Source: Pseudomonas brassicacearum (GTDB lineage Bacteria; Pseudomonadota; Gammaproteobacteria; Pseudomonadales; Pseudomonadaceae). Taken from it: 64,000 bases of DNA. The notes under the pieces are model-generated. The model made no database searches. It was not told where the DNA came from and worked only from the letters and a program-made list of their open reading frames with translations. The position numbers were made by a program, and so were the translations under genes. This document shows positions 4,774-21,722 of the stretch, piece after piece. Where the stretch lies: positions 6,513,562 through 6,577,561 of the forward strand of contig NZ_CP045701.2 of assembly GCF_009601685.2 (NCBI RefSeq), given 5' to 3'. Each line of letters starts with the position of its first letter. Position 1 is the first letter of the stretch.

Positions 4774-5739
4774 TCAAGCACACTGACAATTCACCAGCCC
4801 GGCTTGCAGGCGATCAACGTCTTGCGGCTGATCGAAAATCAGCTCGATTCGAGAATCCTGGCGCCACTCACTGGCTTGCCAGCCCAGCGTCGTCCCCTCC
4901 AGTGCGTTGGCTGAAACCCAACCGTCGACACTGTGGATAACCATTTTCGCCCGCTTCCAGTCTTGCTCTTGCAGCCATCGCGTCAGTGCCGCTGCATCGA
5001 ATTGCTGGCTGGGGTGCCAGCGCCAACCAATACTCCAGCCACCGTCCTGCTGCTGATACAGGCAGATCGGCAGCGTGGGGTCGGACCAAATAGCCGGTAA
5101 CTGGCCCAAGCTCTTCGGCAGATTCAAGATAGCCACAGCCCCACTGCCCCGAGCCGCAAGCCCTGGCAATCGCTCGATCGGCAGCGCAGCCTGCTGCGTC
5201 CAGTACAACGCACGCCCAGGCAGTTGCGCCGTCAGCCGTTCGCGATCGGCTTGGGTGAGGGTCTCGGACTTGTTCAGCACCAACAGTCCGGCCTCCGCCA
5301 GGGTTTGTCGCTGCGCGTCGGGCAAAGGCTTGCCGTCTGCCATCGCCTGGGCATCCAGCACCAGCACGCAGGGTTGCACCGCCAGCACGCCGAGCCATGG
5401 TGCTTCATTCAGTTGTCGCATCAACTGCACCGGATGGCCCAGGCCCGAGGGTTCGATGAACAGCCGATCCGGCCGGGCCTTGCGCAGCAAACGCCCAAGA
5501 CCGATCTGAAACGGCGTGCCGTTGACGCAGCACAAGCAACCGCCGGCCACTTCGCCCAGTGCGATACCATCGCCGGCCTGGGTCAGCAACGCGGCATCCA
5601 GGCCGATCTGACCGAATTCATTGATCAGCACCGCCCAGCGCTCATCGGCCGGGCGCTGCGCCAGCAGATGCCTGATCAGGCTGGTCTTGCCGGCGCCCAA
5701 AGGACCGGCGATGACATGGGTGGGAATGTGCTGCAACAT
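4774..5739 (-). CDS. CobW/COG0523-family GTPase, zinc-responsive context
   Basis: 321 residues. Walker A GPLGAGKTS lies at residues 12-20 and the metal-binding CLCC motif at C68-C70-C71 in GGCLCCVNG; NKSE (NKxD-like) serves guanine recognition. These are the defining features of G3E metallochaperone GTPases. The C-terminal CobW_C domain (WHPSQQFDAAALTRWLQEQDW) is present. Placement beside a ZigA-type paralogue, a DUF1826 gene and Zur boxes suggests a zinc chaperone used during zinc starvation; substrate protein unknown. Its start codon is only 27 bases from that of the divergent secreted-protein gene, so any transcript from further upstream would run antisense to that gene. Confidence 0.88.
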   Translation of the reverse strand: MLQHIPTHVIAGPLGAGKTSLIRHLLAQRPADERWAVLINEFGQIGLDAALLTQAGDGIALGEVAGGCLCCVNGTPFQIGLGRLLRKARPDRLFIEPSGLGHPVQLMRQLNEAPWLGVLAVQPCVLVLDAQAMADGKPLPDAQRQTLAEAGLLVLNKSETLTQADRERLTAQLPGRALYWTQQAALPIERLPGLAARGSGAVAILNLPKSLGQLPAIWSDPTLPICLYQQQDGGWSIGWRWHPSQQFDAAALTRWLQEQDWKRAKMVIHSVDGWVSANALEGTTLGWQASEWRQDSRIELIFDQPQDVDRLQAGLVNCQCA

Positions 5740-5766
5740 AATCGGCGGCTTTCGATGGAGGTGAAT

Positions 5767-6120
5767 ATGCGAATGATCGGCTGGTTGTTACTGGCACTGA
5801 CGTCGAACCAGGCATTGGCCCAGGCTTGCGTGGTCCGCAGCCAGGCGGAACGGCTGGATGTGAAAGTCTGCCAGCAGAACCGCAACATCCCGCAGAAGCT
5901 GTTTGCCGACGGTTTCTGCCAGCCAAACCTTGCCGGCCAGAAGGTCGAGGTGCAATACGTCGATCAGTGCCCTGGCGGCGCGTTCGGCGTTTGCAGCAAC
6001 GCCCAGGTCGCCAATATGCCTTACCGCCAGGATATTCACTATTACGGCGTGGCGACCGATGCCGCTTACCTGCAGCCATTTTGCGAAGGGCAGAGCCAGG
6101 GCACCTGGCTCAAGCCTTAA
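5767..6120 (+). CDS. Small secreted six-cysteine protein of unknown function
   Basis: 117 residues from ATG 5767 with a strong GGAGG site. A signal peptide (MRMIGWLLLALTSNQALAQA) leads to a mature chain of about 97 residues with six cysteines, probably three disulfides in the periplasm. No catalytic motif is recognised. It sits on the opposite strand between two zinc-block genes (DUF1826 and the CobW-family gene), with start codons 27 bases from one and stop codons about 10 bases from the other. I recall homologues at similar loci in other pseudomonads, so it is likely real; role in metal starvation is inference. Confidence 0.75.
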   Translation: MRMIGWLLLALTSNQALAQACVVRSQAERLDVKVCQQNRNIPQKLFADGFCQPNLAGQKVEVQYVDQCPGGAFGVCSNAQVANMPYRQDIHYYGVATDAAYLQPFCEGQSQGTWLKP

Positions 6121-6136
6121 GCCTTAAGCCTTAAGC
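6112..6136. repeat. Tandem heptamer (TTAAGCC)x3
   Basis: AAGCC is followed by three TTAAGCC units spanning the stop codons of the secreted-protein gene and the DUF1826 gene. It supplies both stops and probably arose by slippage. Confidence 0.7.
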
Positions 6137-6784
6137 CAGCCAATCCAGCGTGAGAATCAATCGACGCTCTCCCGGCGCGGGATCCGGAGAGCGATGGATC
6201 AGGCCAAGCCCTTCGTTACCGTGCCACTTTTCGCCTTTAAGCAAACCCACATCACCGCAACGAAACTGCTGGATCACGCTCGGATCACTGGGCTCAGCCT
6301 CAGGCTCGGCAAGGCGTCGCCGGTCCATGGCGCCTTCCTTGAGCCACTGGCTGCCGACACCCGCATAGGTGGTCAGCAGCCGCACCGGCACATGGTCAAC
6401 GTGAAAGCGCGGGCACATGGCCTTGTCCAGTGTGCGCAGGCGCAGGCCGACACGTTGCGCACCCAACAGGCAGGCAAATGCACTGACCAGCCAGGCAACA
6501 TCGGCGATAAAACCTTCATAGCCTTGCAAGTCTCTGAAACCCGCGGCCAGGCCCAGCAGCGCTGGCGGGGTGTCTTCCTGCGGCAACTCGAGCACCCGTG
6601 ATTCGGCCAGCGGCTGGTCCATCGCCAGCACCATGGCCGCAAAATCGCTGATATGTGCAGGAAGCTGACGCTGCCAGACCGCCAGGTTGGTGCCGTCGTC
6701 CAGGATCTGCGTGAATATCCCTGGCGTATCCTCTTGGACCTGCCGTACCCGCACCGCCCTTTTCAGACTAGGCGCCAGCATCAT
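6131..6784 (-). CDS. DUF1826 domain protein
   Basis: 217 residues. The conserved DUF1826 features are WQRQLPAH near the start, [34 protein letters not shown] in the middle and [24 protein letters not shown] towards the end. The HVDH and EKWHG residues could bind metal or resemble a 2-oxoglutarate-oxygenase-like pocket; no activity is established to my knowledge. Its ATG overlaps the zigA stop (ATGA), so the two are translationally coupled and share the Zur-controlled promoter at 8069. That makes it a zinc-starvation protein by context. Confidence 0.85.
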
Positions 6785-7989
6785 GCCGCGACCTCTTCAT
6801 GCCACGGGCCGAACGGATCCGGCAACAGGCGCCAACTTTCAACACCGAGGGCCATTTCCGCGTCAGTGAGCAGGCAAGCGTCCAGTTCAGCGGCGAGTTG
6901 GCCAAAATCGATATCCTGGCCAATGAAGACCAGCTCCTGGCGGCAATCGCCTGTGGCAGCAAGCCAGTTCTTCATGATCGCGGCTGTACTTTCTTCATCC
7001 TGCGGCCATTGGTTTTTCGGCACGAACCGCCACCAGCGCCCGGCGAAGCCATGCCGCATCAAGCCACCGGCCTGGGACCAACTGCCCGCCTCCTCAGGTT
7101 TGCTGGCCAGCCAGAAGAACCCCTTGGAGCGCAGCAGTTTGCCATTGGGCCACGGACGGTCGATAAAATTGAAGAACCGCTCGGGATGAAACGGCCGGCG
7201 AGCCCGATAGGCGGTCGAGGCGATGCCATATTCCACGGTTTCCGGCACGTGCTCGCCACGCAGCTCCTGTAGCCAGCCAGGGGCCTGGGCGGCGCGTTCG
7301 AAGTCGAAAAGGCCTGTGTCGAGAATCCTGCCCAACGGCACCTGCCCCATGACCATGGGGAGGATCTGCGCCTGGGCGTTGAGGCGCCGCAGAATTGCGC
7401 TCAATTCTTCTCGCTCATGCTGGCTGATCAGATCGATCTTGCTGATCAGAATCACGTCGGCAAACTCGATCTGTTCGATCAGCAGGTCGGTGATCGAGCG
7501 TTCATCCTCCTCACCCAGGGTTTCACCCCGTGACGCAAGGCTTTCGGCGGCTTGGTAATCGAGCAGGAAATTCACACCATCGACCACCGTCACCATGGTG
7601 TCGAGCCGCGCCACATCGGCCAGGCTTCGACCTTCTTCGTCACGAAACGTGAAGGTTTCTGCCACGGGCAACGGTTCTGAAATGCCCGTGGATTCGATCA
7701 ACAGATAATCGAAACGCCCTTCCCTGGCGAGTTGCCCGACCTCTTCGAGCAAGTCTTCGCGCAACGTGCAGCAGATGCAGCCGTTGCTCATTTCCACCAG
7801 TTTTTCTTCGGAACGACTCAGGGTGACATCTCGCTGGACTTCGCTGCCATCGATGTTGATCTCGCTCATATCGTTGACGATCACCGCAACTCGCAAATTG
7901 TCGCGATTACGCAGGACGTGGTTGAGCAGTGTGCTTTTGCCGGCACCGAGGAATCCAGAAAGGACGGTTACGGGAAGACGATTGGGCAT
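6781..7989 (-). CDS. zigA: Zinc metallochaperone GTPase ZigA
   Basis: 402 residues from ATG 7989 ([20 protein letters not shown]); the open frame extends five codons upstream. GTPase Walker A GAGKST is at residues 15-20, CICC at C71-C73-C74, ESTGISEP follows, and the long C-terminal CobW_C domain ends around WHEEVAA. Length and sequence fit the ZigA/YciC branch of COG0523, which delivers zinc during starvation. First gene of zigA-DUF1826, read leftward from a perfect Zur-type palindrome 80 bases upstream. The shorter CobW-family paralogue at 4774 may belong to the same regulon. Confidence 0.93.
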
Positions 7990-8068
7990 CAGGTATATCC
8001 TCATCGGGCGGCCGCTTCGACTACGGCTCGTTTCCAGGTTTGGCTGGGGTCAGGGTCACGGCATTTTA

Positions 8069-8083
8069 TGTTATAGTATAACA
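8069..8083. promoter_or_regulatory. Zur box between zigA and the divergent secreted-protein gene
   Basis: Perfect palindrome TGTTATA-G-TATAACA, matching the core of the gammaproteobacterial Zur operator (TGTTATANTATAACA). It lies 80 bases before zigA and 50 before the gene at 8133, so it could repress both. Confidence 0.9.
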
Positions 8084-8132
8084 ACGCAATTCAACCAGCC
8101 CCCACCGTCCCCCATTGGTCTGAGATCACTCC

Positions 8133-8525
8133 ATGCGCAATCATTTGAAATTCGTATTGGCGAGCGCGTTGTTGCTGTGGGTATTAAGCGCTTCAGCCCA
8201 AAGCTCGCTCTTGGCTAATTGCACCCGAAGTGCAAATTTGCTGGCGTGCGTGGATCTCCAAGGCAATGCCTACAGCGTTGCGACCGCGGGAAACACTATT
8301 TATTTACGGGGTTTTGAAGCGGCCAGTCGTCGTTATTGGGCGCAAACGAACAGTCGTTACGGTCAGCTCACATTCTTTACTGGCTTGGCATCGGATGGAG
8401 AAAGCTGGGTCGGATATAGCCGGCGTGTGGGCTGGACGACTCTCAATCGTTTCTCGAGTTCTGGCGGTAGCGCGGGCGCATTTGTATGCGGACGCATGAA
8501 CGGGTGTCAGGACTCATCGCGCTGA
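8133..8525 (+). CDS. Small secreted protein under a Zur-type operator, function unknown
   Basis: 130 residues. A clear signal peptide (MRNHLKFVLASALLLWVLSASAQS) precedes a mature chain with NCTRSANLLACVDLQGN, two cysteine pairs, and an aromatic/glycine-rich middle (YWAQTNSRYGQLTFFTGLASDGESWVGYSRRVGWTT). No enzyme motif is visible. G+C is lower than its neighbours. It reads away from zigA, with the Zur palindrome about 50 bases upstream, and a second Zur box lies just downstream before folE2. A periplasmic or surface role in zinc limitation is inference. A parS-type site starts at its stop codon. Confidence 0.75.
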   Translation: MRNHLKFVLASALLLWVLSASAQSSLLANCTRSANLLACVDLQGNAYSVATAGNTIYLRGFEAASRRYWAQTNSRYGQLTFFTGLASDGESWVGYSRRVGWTTLNRFSSSGGSAGAFVCGRMNGCQDSSR

Positions 8526-8541
8526 TGTTTCACGTGGAACG
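8526..8541. promoter_or_regulatory. parS: parS-type site (ParB binding)
   Basis: TGTTTCACGTGGAACG differs from the palindromic consensus TGTTYCACGTGRAACA only at the last base. It overlaps the stop codon of the preceding gene. It is one of three such sites in the window, about 47 kb from parAB. Confidence 0.85.
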
Positions 8542-8595
8542 TGAACGTTTAGGGAGATGAAACTCCTTTCATGGAAAAGGTTTCTTTAAATTCAT

Positions 8596-8610
8596 TGTTA
8601 TACTATAACA
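8596..8610. promoter_or_regulatory. Zur box upstream of folE2
   Basis: Perfect palindrome TGTTATA-C-TATAACA, identical in both half-sites to the box at 8069, ending 31 bases before the folE2 start. It should repress folE2 and the coupled ABC transporter genes when zinc is sufficient. Confidence 0.92.
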
Positions 8611-8641
8611 TCTAATTTTGAACCTTCGATGGACCTTGACC

Positions 8642-9538
8642 ATGAACGCGTTAACCCTGCCCGACGTCGCTGCGCAGGCTTCACGTCAAACCCTGCCCCT
8701 TGATTGGGTGGGCATGTGTGGCATCGCAACGCCGGTGCTGATTGACGGCCAGCGTCTCAGTGCAATGGCCGATGCGGGTGTCAGCCTTGATGACGCTGAG
8801 GCGCGCGGCATTCACATGTCACGTTTATACCTGGCGCTAGAGCTGCTTGAAGAGACCACGCTGTCGCCAGCGTTGTTGCGCCGAATCCTGCAGCAGTTTC
8901 TCGATAGTCATGAAGGCTTGTCCCACGCGGCATCGCTCAGTGTGCATACCGATCTGCTGCTCAAGCGTCCGGCACTTATCAGCCCATTGATGGGTTGGAA
9001 ACGCTATCCAGTGAGCATCGAAGCCCACTTGAAAAACGCAGTGTTCCACGTGGAACTGAACATTCAGATCCCCTATTCCTCCACCTGCCCTTGTTCGGCC
9101 GCACTTGCTCGGCAATTGATCCAACAGCAATTCGTCGACGACTTCGCTAACAAGAAACTTGAGCATGCCGAAATCCTGGCCTGGCTAGGTTCATCGAACG
9201 GCATTGTCGCCACCCCTCATAGCCAACGCAGTACGGCGACCCTGAGCCTACGCCTGAACGCCGATGCCGACGATTTGCCGCTGCAGTCGTTCATCAACGA
9301 AGCCGAAGCAGCCCTCGGCACCGCTGTGCAGACCGCCGTCAAACGTGCCGATGAACAGGCCTTCGCCCTCGCCAACGGCCAAAACCTGATGTTCTGCGAA
9401 GACGCCGCGCGGCGATTAAGCACAGCCCTGCGTCGGTCACCCGATATCGTTGCGCTGAATGTGCGCGTCGTTCACGCCGAAAGCCTGCACGCCCATGACG
9501 CCGTGGCGCAAAGCTGCTGGACCCGGGACGCGTCATGA
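8642..9538 (+). CDS. folE2: GTP cyclohydrolase FolE2 (zinc-independent, type IB)
   Basis: 298 residues from ATG 8642 (MNALTLPDVAAQ); a TTG 24 bases upstream is in frame but less likely. The enzyme converts GTP to 7,8-dihydroneopterin triphosphate, the first step of folate synthesis. FolE2 replaces zinc-dependent FolE when zinc is scarce. Family marks are the VGMCGIATPV start, VSIEAHLKNAVFHVELNIQIPYSSTCPCSAAL (with the CPCS active-site cysteine) and the late NGQNLMFCEDAARRL. The gene is preceded by a Zur box and overlaps the next start by four bases. A parS-type site lies inside it at 9042. Confidence 0.96.
   Translation: MNALTLPDVAAQASRQTLPLDWVGMCGIATPVLIDGQRLSAMADAGVSLDDAEARGIHMSRLYLALELLEETTLSPALLRRILQQFLDSHEGLSHAASLSVHTDLLLKRPALISPLMGWKRYPVSIEAHLKNAVFHVELNIQIPYSSTCPCSAALARQLIQQQFVDDFANKKLEHAEILAWLGSSNGIVATPHSQRSTATLSLRLNADADDLPLQSFINEAEAALGTAVQTAVKRADEQAFALANGQNLMFCEDAARRLSTALRRSPDIVALNVRVVHAESLHAHDAVAQSCWTRDAS
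9042..9057. promoter_or_regulatory. parS: parS-type site inside folE2
   Basis: TGTTCCACGTGGAACT keeps the full inner palindrome and differs from consensus only at the last base. It is 516 bases from the site at 8526, both within the zinc block. Confidence 0.88.
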
Positions 9539-10203
9539 TCAACTGCCAAGCGCTGTGCTGGGGCGCCCCCGGACAACCCCTCACGCCACCCCTCGCCATG
9601 CAGCGACCGGCCGGCAGCCTCACCGCCATCATCGGTGCCAACGGCTCGGGCAAAAGCAGCCTGTTGAAAGTGTTCGCGGGCCTGCAAAAACCGATCTCCG
9701 GCAAAGTCACCCTGGAGGTTCCACGCCGCGGAGGGGTTTCGTTCATGCCGCAGCAACAGCATCTGGATCGGCAATTCCCCATCAGTTTGCAAGAGTTGGT
9801 GGCCGCCGGTTCCTGGGGTAATCGACACACGCCAGCCATGCGAAGGCAATTGCTCCAGACCGTACTGGCCGACTGGGCGTTGACCGGCCTGGAGCATCGT
9901 CCATTAATGGCGTTGTCTGGAGGCGAACTGCAACGCGCCCTGCTCGCTCGCCTGAGCTTGGCCGAAGCGCCACTGCTGTTGCTCGACGAACCCCACGCCG
10001 CCCTCGACGAACAAGGCCAGGCGCTGCTGTGGAAACACATTCATCAATGGCATGCCGCGGGCAGAACCGTGGTGGTGGTGTGCCATGATCTGGCAGCGGT
10101 CCGCCAACATATTCCCCATACGCTGCTGATCAGCAGCACTGGCTGCGTACTAGGCCGCAGTGTCGACTTGATCGCCCAACAACCTCTGACGTGGGTGGCC
10201 TGA
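9535..10203 (+). CDS. Metal ABC transporter ATP-binding protein (ZnuC-like)
   Basis: 222 residues. It carries Walker A GANGSGKSS (residues ~34-42), Q-loop SFMPQQQ, signature LSGGELQRALLARL, Walker B LLLLDEPHAALDE and the switch histidine in VVCHDLA. It energises zinc (or manganese) import. Its start overlaps the folE2 stop (ATGA) and its stop overlaps the permease start (TGATG), so folE2-ABC-permease-binding protein form one coupled unit behind the Zur box. It is slightly short compared with ZnuC, lacking the usual C-terminal extension. Confidence 0.92.
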   Translation: MINCQALCWGAPGQPLTPPLAMQRPAGSLTAIIGANGSGKSSLLKVFAGLQKPISGKVTLEVPRRGGVSFMPQQQHLDRQFPISLQELVAAGSWGNRHTPAMRRQLLQTVLADWALTGLEHRPLMALSGGELQRALLARLSLAEAPLLLLDEPHAALDEQGQALLWKHIHQWHAAGRTVVVVCHDLAAVRQHIPHTLLISSTGCVLGRSVDLIAQQPLTWVA

Positions 10204-11069
10204 TGCTTGCGGTCACTCATCTCTGGCAACCGTTTCAAGAGTTTGTCTTCATGCGCAGGGCCTTGCTTGGCGGCCTGGTGCTGGCGTGCAGCACGGCGCC
10301 GTTGGGTGTGTTCCTGATTCTTCGGCGCATGAGTTTGATCGGCGACGCCGTGGCGCACGGTATTCTGCCTGGCGCCGCCCTCGGCTTCTGGTTTGCCGGG
10401 CTGAGCCTGCCCGCCCTGACTGTTGGCGGCCTGGGCGCGGGCCTGAGCATGGCCGGGCTCGCCGCCTGGATTACCCGGCGTACCGGTCTAAGAGAGGACG
10501 CCAGCCTCGCGGCGATTTATCCGATTTCCCTGGCGGCCGGCGTGTTGATTCTCGGCATGGCCGGTAAACGCCTGGACTTGCTTCATCTGCTGTTCGGCTC
10601 GGCCCTGGCGGTAGACGGTCCGACACTCACCGGCATGCTCTGGGTTTCCGGTGCCAGCCTGGTGGCGATGGCATTGATTTACCGACCGTTGCTGCTCGAT
10701 ACCCTGGACCCACTGTTCCTGCAAACTGTCAGTCGTCTCGGCCCGTTGGCCCATGGCGTGTTCCTGACCCTGGTGGTGTTGAACCTGGTGATCGGCTTCC
10801 AGGCCATCGGTGCGTTGATGGTGGTTGGCCTGATGATGTTGCCGGCCGCCGCGTCGCGATTCTGGAGCCGTCGCTTGCCGCTGCTGATGCTGATCGCGGG
10901 GCTGCTTGGTTGCCTCTCGGTGTGGCTTGGCCTGTTGTTGTCCTTCTATTACTCACTGCCCAGCGGGCCGTCCATCGTGCTGGTGGCGGGCGGATTGTAC
11001 CTGCTTTCGGTGGTATTCGGTCCGGTGCACGGTTTGCTGCGCCGCCCGCCTTTGCTCACATCCCAATGA
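10203..11069 (+). CDS. Metal ABC transporter permease (ZnuB/MntB-like)
   Basis: 288 residues, nearly all hydrophobic with eight or nine membrane spans. The ABC-3 family motif near the N-terminus (GVFLILRRMSLIGDAVAHGILPGAALGF) and VIGFQAIGALMVVGLMMLPAAASRFW are present. The start ATG shares one base with the preceding stop. It should form the channel for Zn2+ in the inner membrane with the ATPase upstream and the binding protein downstream. Confidence 0.92.
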   Translation: MLAVTHLWQPFQEFVFMRRALLGGLVLACSTAPLGVFLILRRMSLIGDAVAHGILPGAALGFWFAGLSLPALTVGGLGAGLSMAGLAAWITRRTGLREDASLAAIYPISLAAGVLILGMAGKRLDLLHLLFGSALAVDGPTLTGMLWVSGASLVAMALIYRPLLLDTLDPLFLQTVSRLGPLAHGVFLTLVVLNLVIGFQAIGALMVVGLMMLPAAASRFWSRRLPLLMLIAGLLGCLSVWLGLLLSFYYSLPSGPSIVLVAGGLYLLSVVFGPVHGLLRRPPLLTSQ

Positions 11070-11080
11070 GGTGTTTCCCA

Positions 11081-11956
11081 ATGCGCGTTCTGCTCGTGCT
11101 GTTCACTCTGATGCTGTCCATGTCTCTGTCCGCCGCCGAAAAGCTTCAGGTGGTGACCAGCTTCAGCATCCTCGCCGACATGACCCGACAGGTCGGCGGT
11201 GAGCATATCCACATCACCAACATGGTCGGGCCGGACGCCGATGCACACACCTACGAACCCACTCCAGACGACGCCAAGGCATTGCTCAAGGCAAAATTGA
11301 TCATCAAGAATGGACTGGGCTTCGAGCCCTGGTTGGATCGCCTGGTAACCAGCACTGAAACCACGGCTCCGGTGATCAGCGCCAGCCATGGCGTCATTCC
11401 GCGCTCACTGGATGAGGATGGCGAGACCATCCCCGACCCGCACGCATGGCACAACCTGGCGAACGCCGAGCTTTATGTCAGCAATATCACCAAAGCATTG
11501 GAAGCTGCCGACCCGGCCAACAAGGCCGACTACGAACGCAACAGCCAGGCGTATCTGAAGAAAATCTATGCCTTGCTCGCCGAAGCCAAGGCCAAGCTCG
11601 GTGCGTTGCCACCAGGCAATCGCAAGATCGTGACCTCCCACGACGCATTCGGTTACCTGGGCCAGGCCTATGGCATCGAGTTCATGGCGCCTCAGGGTTT
11701 ATCCACAGAGCGTGAACCATCGGCGGCAGAAGTCGCGGCGCTGATTACCCAGATCCGCCAGGCTAAGGTCAAAGCGGTGTTCATGGAAAACATCAAGGAC
11801 GCACGCCTGCTCAAGCAAATCGCCGACGAGAGCGGTGCGCACATCGGCGGCACGCTGTACTCCGATGCACTCGCGGCTAGCGGACCGGCCAGTACCTTTA
11901 CGGGTCTGTTCGAATACAACCTCAATACGTTGTATGAGGCGCTAAGTCGGCCTTGA
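11081..11956 (+). CDS. Metal ABC transporter substrate-binding protein (ZnuA/cluster A-I type)
   Basis: 291 residues from ATG 11081, chosen for the GAGGTG ribosome site; an in-frame ATG at 11066 overlapping the permease stop would add five residues. A signal peptide (to about SLSAAE) leads into KLQVVTSFSILADMTRQVGG. Likely metal ligands are the His in DADAHTYEPTPDD, the His in DPHAWHNLAN, the His in TSHDAFGYLGQAYGI and a late acidic residue. The His-rich loop of classic ZnuA is missing, so metal choice (Zn or Mn) is not certain from the protein alone; the Zur box points to zinc. Confidence 0.9.
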   Translation: MRVLLVLFTLMLSMSLSAAEKLQVVTSFSILADMTRQVGGEHIHITNMVGPDADAHTYEPTPDDAKALLKAKLIIKNGLGFEPWLDRLVTSTETTAPVISASHGVIPRSLDEDGETIPDPHAWHNLANAELYVSNITKALEAADPANKADYERNSQAYLKKIYALLAEAKAKLGALPPGNRKIVTSHDAFGYLGQAYGIEFMAPQGLSTEREPSAAEVAALITQIRQAKVKAVFMENIKDARLLKQIADESGAHIGGTLYSDALAASGPASTFTGLFEYNLNTLYEALSRP

Positions 11957-15537: not shown

Positions 15538-17454
15538 TTATCCAACGGTTCCCTTCGCTTGGATTTTCAGGAGTGGCTCCTGGAACCGCAGCAATCGCCC
15601 TGCATTACCTAACACTAGCAGGGTACTGAGATTGTGCAGCAGCGCAGCGATCATCGCCCCCGCCGCGCCGAGCCAGCCGAAGGCGGCAAACGCGACGATT
15701 GCCAGCGTCCAGCCCAGGCCAATGATCACGTTGACCTGCAACGTGCGCCTGCATTGACGACTCAATCGCACACAGGTGCCGAGGCGCCGCAGGTCGCTGC
15801 CGATCAGCACGATGTCTGCCGACGCCAGGGCAATGTCTGCACCGCCGGCTCCCATGGCGACACCCACCACCCCAGCCTTTAGCGCCAGGGAATCGTTGAT
15901 GCCATCGCCCACCACCATAGGGCGGAACCCATGGTCGATTTCAGCCATGACCCGCTTGAGTTTGTCTTCCGGCAGGGCCTGGGCTTGCAAATCGCCAATG
16001 CCGACATCCCTGGCCAAGGTCGTGGCCACACTCTGGCGGTCGCCGGTCAACAGCAACTGCCGCCCCAGGCCCAGCTCGCGCAGCTCGGCCATGGCAACCC
16101 GTGCCTCCGGCTTGACACTGTCGGCCAACAACAGCCAGGCGAGGAATTGCCCGTTCAGGGCCAGGCCGGCAATCGGGCCATCGTGCTCAGGGATCGTTGA
16201 GGTTTGAATACCCAACTGTGCAAACAACTCCGGCCGCCCAAGCGCCGCTTCGCCCTGGTCGGTCATCGCGACCACGCCCAACCCTTGGCGCTCATGGATG
16301 TCCGTCAGCGCCAGGCAGTTTTCCTTTTCCACCAGTCCTGCCAACGCTCGACTGACCGGATGACTGCTGGCCGAACCGAGGCTGGCAGCCAAAGGCAGCA
16401 ACGATAGAGGAGCATCCTGGGCATGTTCGATGGATTGCAGGCGCAGGACGCCGAAGGTCAGAGTACCGGTCTTATCGACCACCAACGACGTCAGGTCCGC
16501 CAGTTCTTCCAGGAAGGCCGAGCTGCGGATCAGGATCCCGTGGCGCGCTGCCACCGCGATCCCGGCAATGGCGGTGGCCGGGGCCGACAGCACCAACGCA
16601 CAAGGACAGGCGGCAACCAACACCGCCAGCATCGCCTGGGCATCGTTGGTCACGAACCAGGTCACCGCCGCCAGCAACAACACCAGTACCAGGTAACTGC
16701 CGGCGTAGCGTTCCAGCAAGCGAGTGATGGGCGGCTTGGAGCGTTCGGCGTTTTGCATCAGGGCGATGACCTTGCCCAAGGTGGATTCTTCGCCGGTACG
16801 GGTCACTTCCAGGCGTAGCAAGCCATCCAGATTGATCGCGCCACCAAAGACTTCAGTGCCGACCACAGCCTCCAACGGCACCGACTCACCCGTGATGGGC
16901 GCGGTGTCGAGGCTGGCCTGGCCGGACAACACCAGACCATCGGCCGGCACCCGGTCGCCAGCGCGCACCTCCACGACATCGCCGGGCTGAAGCGTCGCGT
17001 TGTCGACATCAATGATCGAACCGTCGGCCTGTACCTTGCGACCTTGGCTGCGGGTCAGTTGGCCAAGGGCATGGATCGCCTCCTGGGAGCCAATGACGCT
17101 GCGCTCTTCCAGCACATGCCCGAAGATCATGATGATCGGCAACAATGCCGCCGTCAGCAAGTCGCCAGTGGCCCAGGCACCGAGCATCGCCAGGGCGATG
17201 AGTTGGTCAGTAATCCCGTGCAGGCTTGGATAGCGCAAGCTGTACCAAGCCGAACGCATCACCGGCACCGCCACCAACAGCGAGGCGAACCCCAACAGCA
17301 GTTGGCTGACTCCGCTCTGCTCCGGCGACCAGGCGCGCCATACCAGGCCCAATGCGAGCAAGCCGAGGGCGAGCATTGCCAAAGTCAGTTGCCGGGCGGC
17401 GATGCGTTGTTCCGTCGAGGACAACATCGGTGCAGCGCTGGTTTGGGCGGTCAT
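15538..17454 (-). CDS. Heavy-metal P1B-type ATPase without N-terminal metal domain
   Basis: 638 residues. Actuator TGES at 188-191, transmembrane CPC at 283-285, phosphorylation site D327-KTGT, HP at 365-366 and hinge GDGINDS from 516 are all present, so it should be an active metal exporter. The N-terminal heavy-metal-associated domain with CxxC of ZntA/CopA is missing; the chain starts directly with membrane spans. The last span has HNLSTLLVLGNAGRLL, which does not settle the metal. It is the fourth gene of a coupled operon with three SPFH proteins (ATGA overlaps), one of which has a histidine-rich cytoplasmic tail that could supply the missing metal-capture function (inference). Confidence 0.9.
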   Translation of the reverse strand: MTAQTSAAPMLSSTEQRIAARQLTLAMLALGLLALGLVWRAWSPEQSGVSQLLLGFASLLVAVPVMRSAWYSLRYPSLHGITDQLIALAMLGAWATGDLLTAALLPIIMIFGHVLEERSVIGSQEAIHALGQLTRSQGRKVQADGSIIDVDNATLQPGDVVEVRAGDRVPADGLVLSGQASLDTAPITGESVPLEAVVGTEVFGGAINLDGLLRLEVTRTGEESTLGKVIALMQNAERSKPPITRLLERYAGSYLVLVLLLAAVTWFVTNDAQAMLAVLVAACPCALVLSAPATAIAGIAVAARHGILIRSSAFLEELADLTSLVVDKTGTLTFGVLRLQSIEHAQDAPLSLLPLAASLGSASSHPVSRALAGLVEKENCLALTDIHERQGLGVVAMTDQGEAALGRPELFAQLGIQTSTIPEHDGPIAGLALNGQFLAWLLLADSVKPEARVAMAELRELGLGRQLLLTGDRQSVATTLARDVGIGDLQAQALPEDKLKRVMAEIDHGFRPMVVGDGINDSLALKAGVVGVAMGAGGADIALASADIVLIGSDLRRLGTCVRLSRQCRRTLQVNVIIGLGWTLAIVAFAAFGWLGAAGAMIAALLHNLSTLLVLGNAGRLLRFQEPLLKIQAKGTVG

Positions 17455-18503
17455 TGTCCGGCTCCCTGGATGATCAGGCGGGCATCGTCTTTCGGGTCGA
17501 CCGTGGTCACTGAACCGGCCTGGCGAAGGATGGCAGGCATGCGTTCGCGATACAGACGCAGCAGCATTTGCGGATCGCTGCCTTGGGTCTTCGCCAGGCC
17601 GAGCACCGTGGCGGTGTCGGCCGAAGCCTTGGCGAGTCGTTCGCTGGCCTGGGCATGGGCGACTTGCACGGCACGGTCGGCGTCCTGGCGGGCGGCCTGG
17701 GTGAGCTTTTCGGCTTCGGTGCGCGCGTTGGCCACAGCTTTATCGGCTTGCTGGCTGGCCGTCAGTACCGCGTTGAAGGCGCTGACCGCCGGCCCCGGCA
17801 GACTCGATTGCACATCGACCCGCACCACTTCGATCCCCAACCCCTGCCCCGTCGACGCTAGGTCAGCCAGGCGTCGGTTAAGCCCCTGCACCAGATCGCC
17901 ACGCAAGCGTTCGCGACGTTCGGCCGCCTGGTTATCGCTGCCCATCAGTTCGGGGCGCGCCACCAGAATGGTGTCCAGGTCCCGAGCTGCGGTCAGGGCC
18001 ACGGCACTGCGGGTCGCCAGCCGGTCCAGTGCCGGCAGGACATGCTCACCTTGCAAGACGAACGCGTAAGGGTCGGTGACTTTGTAGAACACTCGCACAT
18101 CGAGTTGCACGACGCCGGCATCACCGGTCAATAAATAACCAGAACCGGCCAACGCATCGCTGACCGGCGTGGCGAAACTGGCAACACGATCAGCCTGCAA
18201 GGCCGCATCCGAGCGCAGCAGATTTTCCACCCGCCGCTCCAGCACCCGATCCGCCGCCGGCAACAAGATCACTTGTTCCACAGGACGAGGCCACGCCAAC
18301 AAGAGGCCGGCATTCTGGATTCGATCCAAGGCTCCAAAGTGCAGCACCACCGCACGATTCTGCGGATCGATCTGCCGCACGTTGGAAAAAACCCAGGCCA
18401 ACGCTGCCAACACCGTGACGACGTAAAGGGCAAGAAATGCCAGGCGTCCGGCCTGGATCCACGGACTGGATAACTCATTTGTTCCACGTGGAACCAAACT
18501 CAT
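17451..18503 (-). CDS. SPFH/band 7 membrane protein, HflC/HflK-like (third gene of the SPFH-ATPase operon)
   Basis: 350 residues. One N-terminal membrane span (residues ~18-40, LAFLALYVVTVLAALAWVF) is followed by the band 7 domain (VRQIDPQNRAVVLHFGAL to LGIEVVRVDVQSSLPGP) and a long Ala/Gln/Arg coiled coil (KAVANARTEAEKLTQAARQDADRAVQ) ending in a hydrophobic-polar tail. This is the architecture of HflK/HflC-type complexes that cage FtsH; it is too divergent to be the standard pair. Start and stop overlap its neighbours by four bases. A parS-type site overlaps codons 3-8. Confidence 0.85.
   Translation of the reverse strand: MSLVPRGTNELSSPWIQAGRLAFLALYVVTVLAALAWVFSNVRQIDPQNRAVVLHFGALDRIQNAGLLLAWPRPVEQVILLPAADRVLERRVENLLRSDAALQADRVASFATPVSDALAGSGYLLTGDAGVVQLDVRVFYKVTDPYAFVLQGEHVLPALDRLATRSAVALTAARDLDTILVARPELMGSDNQAAERRERLRGDLVQGLNRRLADLASTGQGLGIEVVRVDVQSSLPGPAVSAFNAVLTASQQADKAVANARTEAEKLTQAARQDADRAVQVAHAQASERLAKASADTATVLGLAKTQGSDPQMLLRLYRERMPAILRQAGSVTTVDPKDDARLIIQGAGQ
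18480..18495. promoter_or_regulatory. parS: parS-type site in the first codons of an SPFH gene
   Basis: TGTTCCACGTGGAACC keeps the full inner palindrome and differs from TGTTCCACGTGGAACA only at the last base. It encodes residues 3-8 (L-V-P-R-G-T) of the SPFH protein at 17451-18503. Confidence 0.88.
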
Positions 18504-19543
18504 GGTTGTGTTCCACCTTTGCCTTCCACGGAAACAGGACCGTCCACCAGCACACGGAATGGCGCCGCATCGGTGCGCAAAATCAGCTTCGTGCCTGGGC
18601 TGACGATCGTGCCCAAGGTGTCCAGCGAACGGAGCAGGTTGTAGAGCTGCGGGGAACCTGCGTACGCACGGCCATAGATCTGGGCCGCCTCTACTCGCGA
18701 CTGGGCTTCGATATCCGCGGCCTTCACCGTGGCATCGGCTTGCATGACTCGCGCATCACGCTCCGCGGCGGAGCGAATCTGCGCCGCTTCGCGCTTGCCG
18801 ATGGCTGTGCGTTCGGTGGCGATGGTCTCACGCTCGGCGCGCATGCGATCCACCGTCGCCGTCAGTGTCACCGAGGGCAAGGTCAGGCGTTCGACGCCGA
18901 CTTGCAACACCCGCACGCCATAAGTGGTGAGCAACTGTTGATCGATCTGCTGACGCAGCTGGGCTTCGAAATCGGCGATGCGCACCTGGCTGGCATCGGT
19001 GTTGACCAGGTTCGCCAGGTCAAAACTGGCGGCCGTGGTTTCCAGCGCCGAGCCGACGAATGTACGAATCTGCCGTGCGGCTTCGTCCGGTTGGTTCTGC
19101 ACCGCACGCATGAAACGCTGCACGTTGTCCGGGTCTCCCTGCACCTGCCAAGCCACGTAGGCCTGGACGATGATCCGCAGCCCATCACGGGTGCCGACAT
19201 CCTGCAGGCCACTGGATGTAGTGCGCAGTCGCAAATCTACCGGGATCGCCGCCTCGAACGGCGCCGGCCAGCGCCAACCCAAGCCAGGTTGCAGCAACAC
19301 CCGCGCTGGATTGCCGAAACGGGTGATGACCGTGGCCTCCCCCGAACGCACTTGCACCAGGCTTGCGGCCGCAACGGCAAACGCCACCAACAGCGCCGCC
19401 CAACCCATCCGTCGCCACGGGAACGGACCGGCTTGCTGCGGATCGCCATGATGGTGGTGATGATGATGGCCATGGTGATGACCGGAATGGCCGTGATCGT
19501 GACCAGCGTGGTCGTGGTGATCGTGTGAAGAGGACTGGCTCAA
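18500..19543 (-). CDS. SPFH/band 7 membrane protein with 17-histidine N-terminal tail
   Basis: 347 residues. Residues 7-32 contain 17 histidines interspersed with Asp and Gly, an extraordinary metal-binding tail on the presumed cytoplasmic side. A single membrane span (~48-64, WAALLVAFAVAAASLV) and a full band 7 domain (VRSGEATVITRFGNPARVLLQPGLGWRWPAPFEAAIPVDLR) follow, then a helical stretch rich in Ala, Arg and Glu (AERETIATERTAIGKREAAQ) and a C-terminal LGTIVSPGTKLILRTDA as in HflC. It is second in the operon, with four-base overlaps at both ends. The tail suggests a sensor or donor for the ATPase; untested. Confidence 0.87.
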   Translation of the reverse strand: MSQSSSHDHHDHAGHDHGHSGHHHGHHHHHHHGDPQQAGPFPWRRMGWAALLVAFAVAAASLVQVRSGEATVITRFGNPARVLLQPGLGWRWPAPFEAAIPVDLRLRTTSSGLQDVGTRDGLRIIVQAYVAWQVQGDPDNVQRFMRAVQNQPDEAARQIRTFVGSALETTAASFDLANLVNTDASQVRIADFEAQLRQQIDQQLLTTYGVRVLQVGVERLTLPSVTLTATVDRMRAERETIATERTAIGKREAAQIRSAAERDARVMQADATVKAADIEAQSRVEAAQIYGRAYAGSPQLYNLLRSLDTLGTIVSPGTKLILRTDAAPFRVLVDGPVSVEGKGGTQP

Positions 19544-21501
19544 TGGGCAGCTCCTGGCGGGACAGGGTTACGCGGCGACGCGGGGTCTGCCGGCAGCGTG
19601 AAGGTACGCAAGTCGATGGTCGGCCCGTTGCCGTTGCCGCCCAGGCGATGGTCGAGAATCAGCAACCGGGCATTGGCGAGGCCCTGGCTCAGTTGACCCA
19701 GGTAGTGTTCCAGCACAAAAGCGTGCCCCGCCGTGGCGTAGGCTTTGCGGTCGGCATTGAAGCGCAAGTCGGCGGCCTGGGCAGTTGCGTTGATTTCCCG
19801 GGCGGTGGCCGTGGCCTGGTCATGGGCGACGCTGGCTTGCAATTTCGCCTGGTTCGTCTGTTCCGCCGCCGCGCCGCGCTCTCGAGCGATCAATGCCTGC
19901 GCGCCGATCTGCGCCGCCTGAACGCCGTGGTAGGCGTTGGCCGCTCCGGCCGGTGGATGAATCGCCTCCACGACCGTTGCCAGGATTTCCACGCCGCTGT
20001 CGAGCGATTGCAAGTCAGCCTGGACGGCGCGACCGATTTCGTCGGCGAGGCTGACACGGTCCGCGCCCAACAAACCGTCCAGCGTGCGCGACGCGAACTC
20101 ATGCACCAGGATGCGGCTGGCGGTGCTGCGAATCAGCGTCGGCACATCGGCGCTGTTGTAGGTCGCCGCCAACGCCGCGGCGTCCGTCAAGCCGATGCGG
20201 TAGACGAAGCGCACGTCCATGTTGACGATCTGGAAGCTCTGCTGGTCGGCACGACGACTGGCAATGACCTGGGACTTGTCATTCACATGGCTGGCGTCCC
20301 ACAACCGATTGGCGATTGCCGGTGCGGGTCCCTCCGCCGGTTCAGCCTCGACCACTGCCCGACTCTCCGCGACGCTGGTGGCCAGTTCATGCACAACGCC
20401 ATTCTCGACGTTGAGCACCCTGCCCCACGGCCAAGGCAACGCGACATGCAAGCCCGGGCCGAATACCTCTACCGGTTTGCCGAAACGCTCATAGATGCCA
20501 CGCCCCTGCAGCGGCACTTCGTGCACGCCCGTCAGCAACCAGCCCACCAGCACCACCAGCGCCAACACCGGCAAAAAAGCCCGGCGCATGTAACTGAAGG
20601 CCCAGATCTGGCGCAGGTCGATGCCAAAACGGTTGTGCAGTTCATGTTGCAAGGCCAGCCACGGTTGCGGCGGCCAGCGCAGCAGATCGGCGATGACGCT
20701 GCGGCCCAGCAGCGTCGGTTCCAGGGCGTCCCGGCGTGGGATGAATAACGACAGCACCGCGCGCAACAACAACTCTGCCGCCACCAGCCCCGGCAGCAAC
20801 CCCATCAGGACTGCCAGGCGCGTCGGCCAGAGGGACGTTTCTGCGCCGAACAACAAGCACAAAGCGCCAAGCACCAGCACGATGATCGCCACCCGCGTCA
20901 GTTGCGCCAGCGGCGGCGCTTCCGGCCATTCCACGGGAGATTGCTGGGCCAATTGCCGCTCGAACACCAACAGCCCGAACGCCAACAACAACGACAACAC
21001 CGCCCCCACACTGGCCGAGCCACCGAGGGCGGCAGCCGGCAGTTGCAAGTTCCAGGCTTGTTCCAGGCCCAGCAATACCAACACTGACCAACCCGCCAGC
21101 CACAACGCAGGCGCACCGATTTGCTTCAGCAGACCGACCCCGCGAGCCCCCATTCGCTCCAGCAGCCGCTCATACCAACCCAAGTTATCAACAGGCTCGT
21201 TTTCCGTCGGCAGGTTATCCACAGCCGGCAGCAGCGCCCTGCTACGCCATTGCGTGACCCACCAGGCCGATTGCAGACCTGCCACCAGCACCAGCAGTCC
21301 CGCAACTTGGCTGACCAGCAGCACCGGCCACAACGATTGCGGCGAAAACACCCCGATAAAAAACGCCAGTAACAGGCCCACGCCCGCCACGCTTCCCAGG
21401 CCGAAAGCAATCTGCTTCAAGCGGCGTCCCTGAAACGACGCGCGCTGAAAACGCGGCCATTGGGCCACCTGTGCCCCTTCGACATCAAGATCGACTTGCA
21501 T
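19540..21501 (-). CDS. Polytopic SPFH/band 7 protein (HflK-like), first gene of the SPFH-ATPase operon
   Basis: 653 residues, about twice the length of HflK. The N-terminal ~320 residues have six or seven hydrophobic spans (for example QIAFGLGSVAGVGLLLAFFIGVF, LWPVLLVSQVAGLLVLVAGL, AGWSVLVLLGLEQAW, VAIIVLVLGALCLLFGA, LALVVLVGWLLTGV). The band 7 domain begins at VPLQGRGIYERFGKPVEVFGPGLHVALPWPWG, continues through MDVRFVYRIGLTDAAALAATYNSADVPTLIRS and ends in a coiled coil (AAEQTNQAKLQASVAHDQATATAREINATAQ). This fusion of a membrane array with an HflK-like domain is unusual. It leads a unit of four genes all joined by ATGA overlaps; the promoter must lie in 21502-21700. Confidence 0.85.
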   Translation of the reverse strand: MQVDLDVEGAQVAQWPRFQRASFQGRRLKQIAFGLGSVAGVGLLLAFFIGVFSPQSLWPVLLVSQVAGLLVLVAGLQSAWWVTQWRSRALLPAVDNLPTENEPVDNLGWYERLLERMGARGVGLLKQIGAPALWLAGWSVLVLLGLEQAWNLQLPAAALGGSASVGAVLSLLLAFGLLVFERQLAQQSPVEWPEAPPLAQLTRVAIIVLVLGALCLLFGAETSLWPTRLAVLMGLLPGLVAAELLLRAVLSLFIPRRDALEPTLLGRSVIADLLRWPPQPWLALQHELHNRFGIDLRQIWAFSYMRRAFLPVLALVVLVGWLLTGVHEVPLQGRGIYERFGKPVEVFGPGLHVALPWPWGRVLNVENGVVHELATSVAESRAVVEAEPAEGPAPAIANRLWDASHVNDKSQVIASRRADQQSFQIVNMDVRFVYRIGLTDAAALAATYNSADVPTLIRSTASRILVHEFASRTLDGLLGADRVSLADEIGRAVQADLQSLDSGVEILATVVEAIHPPAGAANAYHGVQAAQIGAQALIARERGAAAEQTNQAKLQASVAHDQATATAREINATAQAADLRFNADRKAYATAGHAFVLEHYLGQLSQGLANARLLILDHRLGGNGNGPTIDLRTFTLPADPASPRNPVPPGAAH

Positions 21502-21722
21502 ACCACCCCAGCACTCGTGGCGCTCAAAATCCGGGCCCGTGGACAGACGCCACCGACGCTTCGTTACATGCCGTTACCTTATAACCATTACTGTGAAATT
21601 TCCGTTTTGAATTCTTCATGCCAAGGCCAGTGCCGACCTATTGACTTAAGCCTTGACCGAAATCGCTGGAAACGCTCATATTACGATCATAATTTTTTAT
21701 CAGGGCAAGCGGGAGAACAGCG

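Follow-up and report, generated by a model that had tools for sequence, protein, structure and literature searches.

Three SPFH genes and an HmtA-family P1B ATPase gene form a conserved, probably zinc-responsive operon in Pseudomonas brassicacearum

Gene content and junctions of the operon

The DNA analysed here (the window, 64 kb) is the terminal part of the one-contig, 6.58 Mb genome of Pseudomonas brassicacearum, and our subject is a group of four genes on its minus strand at 15538-21501. Open reading frames (ORFs) and Pfam matches identify three SPFH genes followed by one P1B ATPase gene, here called g1, g2, g3 and g4, with Band_7/SPFH matches in g1, g2 and g3 and E1-E2_ATPase plus Hydrolase matches in g4. 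The same gene content and coordinates had been given by an earlier annotation made from the letters of the DNA alone (the sequence-only reading). The closest-scoring relative of g1 comes from P. brassicacearum (96%). The genes and a putative regulatory site before them are listed below.

21573-21585, minus strand: Zur-like box GTTATAAGGTAAC, 72-84 nt upstream of the g1 start, matching 10/12 positions of the Zur-type palindrome
19540-21501, minus strand: g1, polytopic HflK-like SPFH protein, 653 aa, with seven predicted transmembrane (TM) helices and then Band_7 at 332-544; counterpart PA2439/PaFlo5
18500-19543, minus strand: g2, HflC-like SPFH protein, 347 aa, TTG start, histidine (His)-rich N-terminus and one TM helix; counterpart PA2438/PaFlo6
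17451-18503, minus strand: g3, second single-span SPFH protein, 350 aa, with HflK as nearest NCBIfam model (below cut-off); counterpart PA2437/PaFlo7
15538-17454, minus strand: g4, HmtA-family P1B ATPase, 638 aa, with CPC, without an HMA domain, and with T101/T583/H607-N608 at the ZntA ion-path positions

Neighboring genes overlap by 4 nt at each of the three junctions, as stated previously, and the overlaps read ATGA at g2/g3 and g3/g4. At g1/g2 the overlap is TTGA instead, because g2 starts with TTG. In a survey of 55 loci, six of which were left out (L063 as a script artefact and five without a start found), the g1/g2 overlap of 4 nt was present in 28 of 49 resolved loci, and the remaining 21 have 3-27 nt between the two genes. 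Likewise, 13 of 40 genus loci have a spacing of 11-107 nt between g3 and g4; starts were picked by script here, and some gaps may be overestimated. As overlap lengths vary among relatives, they carry no message on stoichiometry, and the fixed stoichiometry previously read from them falls away. Script-picked starts of g2 were TTG in 46 and GTG in three of the 49 resolved Pseudomonadaceae loci, including the window (start at 19541-19543), and the annotated start is ATG in three of four plasmid copies. Output of g2 may be held down by its TTG or GTG start.

The operon corresponds to the P. aeruginosa hmtA locus

By sequence comparison, the operon is the counterpart of the PA2439-PA2435 (hmtA) locus of Pseudomonas aeruginosa. 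Over 620 aa, the g4 protein shares 81% identity with P. aeruginosa protein P0139 (from a cluster of 1424 sequences), which is taken to be PA2435 because of the shared operon context. Like the operon in the window, the P. aeruginosa PA2434-PA2439 cluster combines an HflK-like protein, two HflC-like proteins, a P1B ATPase and Zur-type control. Its listing in PMC4542158 runs counter to the earlier statement that such a gene set was not known from any described system. That study reports PA2434, PA2435 (HmtA), PA2437, PA2438 and PA2439 to be up 5.6-14.4-fold in a znuA mutant, rates the predicted Zur site as weak and terms HmtA an importer. Zur binds (shifts) the PA2439 promoter according to PMC8531726, and zinc depletion raises the proteins of the cluster, significantly for some only, according to the preprint PMC11761036. 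HmtA is described as a zinc and copper importer, after Lewinson et al. 2009, in PMC10393844 and PMC8456098.

The SPFH half of the cluster has been studied separately. PA2437/2438/2439 are PA14_33110/33080/33070 and are marked as Zur regulon in a table of PMC9431628, and PMC13086221 (2026) names the PA14 genes 33070, 33080 and 33110 PaFlo5, 6 and 7, in that order, corresponding to PA2439/PA2438/PA2437 and so to g1, g2 and g3. Joint deletion of PaFlo5-6-7 had slight effects: biofilm fell by ~20%, and there was a degree of attenuation in larvae. The available text of PMC13086221 treats the three as SPFH proteins without a set role; in it, "ATPase", "hmtA", "EDTA" and "transporter" are absent, "zinc" occurs once, about FtsH, and no zinc test is noted. 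Elsewhere, PA2439 appears in the accessible part of PMC4694147 only as a hypothetical protein beside a transposon insertion affecting aggregation, and it is missing from the main text of PMC8041468 as available. The consulted portions of the SPFH survey PMC2636767, the Zur-regulon review PMC6103462 and the COG0523 survey PMC2770081 hold no relevant mention, and those of the Paracoccus zinc paper PMC5387054 contain no Hfl or SPFH term. Nothing in the literature searched joined SPFH, P-type ATPase, HflK and operon, or HmtA and SPFH, and its available portions held no proposal of an SPFH-ATPase complex. The gene cluster itself is already known; this literature did not yield the idea of a single obligate, mobile SPFH-plus-ATPase system.

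The four genes are linked in the carriers checked

The order g1-g2-g3-g4 was found in all 40 loci fetched from the genus and in 79 of 80 named loci, the exception (L094) being a short contig with g2-g3-g4. The named set comprises 80 loci kept of 335, with P. aeruginosa not among them, and its genomes overlap with those of the genus set. Such conservation of order makes a chance association unlikely. Across the genus sample of 119 genomes, 71 carry g1, and an ATPase of 75% identity or more was found in exactly these 71; 25 further genomes have only ATPases of 36-39% identity. In the family sample both occur in the same 28 of 198 genomes, representing 3 of 19 genera. When genus and family samples were pooled, g1 and the ATPase gene shared contig and strand and were 2015-2811 bases apart in 97/97 genomes, counting only ATPase matches of at least 73% identity and leaving out those of 35-39% (ZntA-like pumps). 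The presence of g2 and g3 in this interval was confirmed in the fetched loci, 40 from the genus and 14 from two sister genera (below, the sister-genera loci).

Among 244 genomes of the order, an ATPase-only query picked out five carriers, all within the family; among 398 genomes of the phylum it picked out 11. The three carriers fetched from outside the family all contain g1-g2-g3-g4. The g1 protein of one of these, the Rhizobium-like L160, is closest to named Rhizobium proteins. No other carrier was found among the 274 genomes of the class sample (at most four candidates scored per genome). Among 72,556 plasmid records, separate queries with g1, g2 and g4 (E limits of 1e-60, 1e-60 and 1e-90, respectively) each matched the same 10: seven from Rhizobium and one each from Burkholderia ubonensis, Paraburkholderia sprentiae and Klebsiella aerogenes. 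Four of these regions were opened, and all read HflK, HflC/SPFH, SPFH/HflK and P-type ATPase in that order. On the P. sprentiae plasmid, a GTP-binding protein gene and four zinc/metal ABC-transporter genes lie some kilobases upstream, the transporter genes ~3.5 kb from the cassette. The Klebsiella copy had no match in E. coli complete genomes.

Two of the ten plasmids are typed conjugative, L165 (Klebsiella aerogenes pYD-K10_1) and L166 (Burkholderia ubonensis pMSMB2035), with Tn3 or IS transposases some kilobases away from the cassette. Judging from the conjugative plasmid types and the nearby transposases, the cassette probably moves between genera. By record name, carriers belong to the alpha-, beta- and gammaproteobacteria, and none of those checked has a g4-type ATPase without the SPFH genes. 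Pairwise distances of the g1-g4 proteins correlate with r of 0.92-0.98 over 61 loci, with no control gene for comparison. The sequence-only reading had treated the four genes as one unit and had staked this on the ATPase not being found mostly without SPFH genes; close homologues were always found with them (97/97 genomes, 3/3 outside the family and the same 10 plasmids), and the remote ATPases of 35-39% identity, which are ZntA-like pumps, do occur without them. On this comparative evidence, g1-g4 is an evolutionary unit.

A Zur-like box precedes g1 and a zinc-starvation island lies nearby

Upstream of g1, the Zur-like box scores highest of all sites in each of the 41 genus loci (window included), with 9-10 of 12 bases matched, against a mean of ~6.3 and a maximum of 8 in a coding-window control from the same loci. 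A score of at least 9 was obtained in 78 of 79 named loci, the 14 sister-genera loci scored 8-10, and two distant gammaproteobacterial loci scored 11 and 10. In the whole genome, GTTATANNRTAAC occurs in three places, all of them within the window: once before g1 and twice in a zinc-starvation island, whose features are given below.

4774-11956, no strand assigned: zinc-starvation island with two CobW/COG0523-type genes, DUF1826, FolE2 (GCHY-1), ABC ATPase, ABC-3 permease and ZnuA-type binding protein (Pfam and ORFs)
8070-8082, no strand assigned: palindromic Zur-like box, 0 mismatches, in the zinc island
8597-8609, no strand assigned: second palindromic Zur-like box, 0 mismatches, immediately before folE2

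Together with the published induction in P. aeruginosa, the box and the island support a zinc role. The operon is probably induced on zinc shortage.

The g4 family carries a distinct ion-path signature

An HMA domain was looked for in g4 and gave no Pfam match, consistent with the previous description of an ATPase that lacks its own metal-binding domain. Structure relatives of g4 include 7qbz (E 7.5e-76) and the P1B-2 ATPase ZntA (4umv, E 2.2e-71), both of which share the P1B core. In the 4umv alignment (positions counted by hand), the ZntA ion-path residues E202, K693 and D714 align with T101, T583 and H607 of g4. These three residues are identical in 58/58 family ATPases, as is the CPC of the membrane part (C283/C285), and the T, T and HN positions are kept, by motif, in the four plasmid ATPases. 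ZntA also has CPC in its membrane part, and differs from g4 both in the E/K/D positions and in its N-terminal HMA domain. SPC with HEGxT are the motifs of P1B-4 ATPases, and 7qbz, which we take to be of that type (CoaT type), has SPC and HEGST where the g4 family has CPC and HN-x-ST (HNLST in g4). A separate ZntA-type pump of 739 aa in the same genome has E, K and D in the regions of the ZntA ion-path residues, and a His-rich N-terminus. The combination of T/T/H with CPC/HN-x-ST therefore sets g4 apart as a distinct P1B subgroup, and the altered ion path would fit an unusual transport direction without proving one.

Three SPFH subunits with HflK/HflC-like topology

A hydropathy scan placed seven TM helices in g1 and one N-terminal TM helix each in g2 and g3. 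From the charge distribution, g1 is predicted to have its N-terminus inside and its SPFH domain in the periplasm. The predicted periplasmic SPFH domain, the single TM helix of g2 and g3 and the long helix at the C-terminus of the modeled g1 and g2 all resemble E. coli HflK/HflC in complex with FtsH (7vhp, 7wi3, 9cz2). In contrast to that system, g1 has six extra TM helices, and the operon encodes three SPFH subunits rather than two, plus a metal ATPase partner. Structure models had a mean predicted local distance difference test score (pLDDT) of 62 for g1, confident in the TM part only, and 45 for g2, which was kept out of the fold search.

The modeled membrane part of g1 (20527-21501) looks like CDF zinc transporters (YiiP, ZnT1, ZnT3, ZnT7, SLC30A10), a tentative likeness that may be a chance resemblance of helical bundles. 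CDF proteins carry a D/HxxxD metal site in TM helices two and five; it was looked for in the TM part of g1 and was absent.

Histidine-rich N-termini occur on g2, the ATPase or both

In the window, g2 has 17 His within residues 7-32, ahead of its single TM helix (47-65). The sequence-only reading had described a 17-histidine tail on the HflC-like protein, which is correct in number, with the stretch lying at the N-terminus. Given this position before the sole TM helix and the positive-inside rule, the stretch is predicted to be cytosolic. A His-rich g2 N-terminus was found in 41/41 genus loci including the window, 14/14 sister-genera loci, 3/3 loci outside the family and 3/4 plasmid loci, although some of the genus-locus His counts include in-frame codons that precede the likely start and are not translated. 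The exception is the Klebsiella plasmid locus, with 2 His in g2 and 5 among the first 40 residues of the ATPase. A His-rich ATPase start also occurs in sister-genera loci, in Rhizobium and Rhizobium-like loci and in the deep genus members L038 and L040-L042, and is lacking from g4 of the window. Every locus with N-termini read has a His-rich start on g2, the ATPase or both, and, to judge from these sequences, the element is placeable on scaffold, pump or both. It may serve one common purpose at either position.

A candidate zinc importer with a dedicated SPFH assembly

The interpretation that we favor, with modest confidence, is an ATPase importer for zinc starvation with a dedicated SPFH assembly. 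It draws on gene order, co-occurrence, the Zur-like box, hydropathy topology, the ATPase signature and the His-rich tails, and on the P. aeruginosa literature for induction in zinc depletion, Zur binding and import activity. Operon unity and regulation are supported by the comparisons made here and by the published P. aeruginosa data; the direction of transport in P. brassicacearum, the SPFH cage or assembly and the job of the His tail are what we infer. In zinc shortage, Zur would come off the box ahead of g1, allowing joint expression of g1-g4, and the ATPase would carry zinc (perhaps copper too) from the periplasm to the cytosol. The SPFH trio, with HflK/HflC topology (N-terminus in, SPFH domain periplasmic), would assemble into a hetero-oligomeric ring or cage of the inner membrane, keeping hold of the ATPase and shielding or supplying its periplasmic entry. 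The cytosolic His-rich tail of g2 would sit at the metal exit, where it might act as an acceptor or as a sensor throttling import.

Several observations weigh against this interpretation. P-type ATPases normally export, and no direct evidence for an SPFH-ATPase complex was found. Since g1 is absent from 48 of the 119 genomes of the genus sample, the operon is dispensable. The Zur-like site of the AT-rich sister-genera locus L057 is not convincing, and no box of this consensus is seen at the four plasmid loci, where the best scores of 7-8 are at chance level, or at L160 (best score 8). A reversed-pattern control gave as many genome strand matches as the pattern itself (5 vs 5), so that box position, not number, is informative. 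A periplasmic His relay in g1 was considered and rejected, as conserved periplasmic His are not significantly above other residues (7 of 12 His of the SPFH part conserved in at least 95%, P = 0.09). Finally, hmtA mRNA is reported as constantly low and without repression by added zinc (PMC8531726), and PMC10393844 holds that import by HmtA needs confirmation and that hmtA is an exception to Zur binding.

The strongest competing explanation, which we still consider unlikely, is that the three SPFH proteins make up another form of HflK/HflC complex, which would re-tune the zinc protease FtsH, or shield membrane proteins from it, in zinc starvation, with the ATPase co-regulated only or a protected client. 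Matches of g1 and g3 to the HflK model and of g2 to the HflC model and E. coli HflC structures point this way, and an FtsH link is indicated in PMC9431628 and PMC11761036. However, all three proteins score below the NCBIfam cut-offs for true HflK and HflC (TIGR01933, cut-off 159.4 bits, g1 55.6 and g3 98.4 bits; TIGR01932, cut-off 134.4 bits, g2 91.0 bits). The genome also has another adjacent SPFH pair at 696563-698073 that is probably the ordinary hflK-hflC, and modulation of FtsH alone would not require a link to one particular ATPase in all carriers.

Next in standing, and rather improbable, is export of metal to the periplasm by g4, either for detoxification or, under zinc scarcity, to load zinc enzymes of the periplasm; the His tail would gather metal in the cytosol. 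P1B ATPases export as a class, NCBIfam places g4 above the cut-offs of heavy-metal and cadmium subfamilies, and the ZntA-type pump of the same genome shares a His-rich N-terminus. Conversely, Zur-type control and the published induction in zinc depletion fit acquisition rather than detoxification, and for this reason toxic-metal export was dropped as first choice. The ZntA ion-path residues are absent in 58/58 proteins, and cells overexpressing HmtA are reported to contain more zinc and copper (review PMC10393844). Having taken g4 for an exporter, the sequence-only reading was probably wrong on this point, the g4 counterpart HmtA being described as an importer. We give little credence to a shared promoter and a history of joint transfer for products that do not touch, with the SPFH proteins serving general membrane organization in zinc shortage: it would suit the slight phenotypes of the P. 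aeruginosa trio deletion under the conditions reported in PMC13086221 and the fact that interaction data for the trio and the ATPase were not found, and is countered by genes left unseparated in every carrier checked and by the correlated protein distances given above.

The zinc-importer interpretation may extend, more doubtfully, to a mobile, self-contained machine in which the ATPase imports zinc inside its own three-subunit SPFH cage, His tails at the cytosolic exit are carried by scaffold or pump, and the membrane part of one scaffold subunit perhaps derives from a CDF zinc transporter whose metal site was lost. We know of no earlier P-type ATPase with its own SPFH cage, and this would be the first. 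Such a system would link two bodies of work that did not meet in the literature searched, one on HmtA as a puzzling P-type ATPase importer and one on PaFlo5-7 as SPFH proteins without a clear role. It bears on whether and how a P-type ATPase imports and on how a membrane client profits from an SPFH cage. Should transport depend on the SPFH proteins, studies of HmtA alone covered an incomplete system.

Variation among related loci

An extra small PA2436-like gene with a signal-peptide-like start lies between g3 and g4 in 9 of the 14 sister-genera loci (L056, L058, L060-L064, L066 and L067); its L064 copy gave no Pfam match. These loci, L060 of the P. aeruginosa group among them, combine this gene with a His-rich ATPase N-terminus, and the window has neither. 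L060 (G513) encodes neither P0146 nor P0139 exactly; it was assigned to that group on the strength of a match between P0146 and the N-terminus of its ATPase. At the genus locus L044 (G034), where the gene order is otherwise kept, g1 is divided into two overlapping frames.

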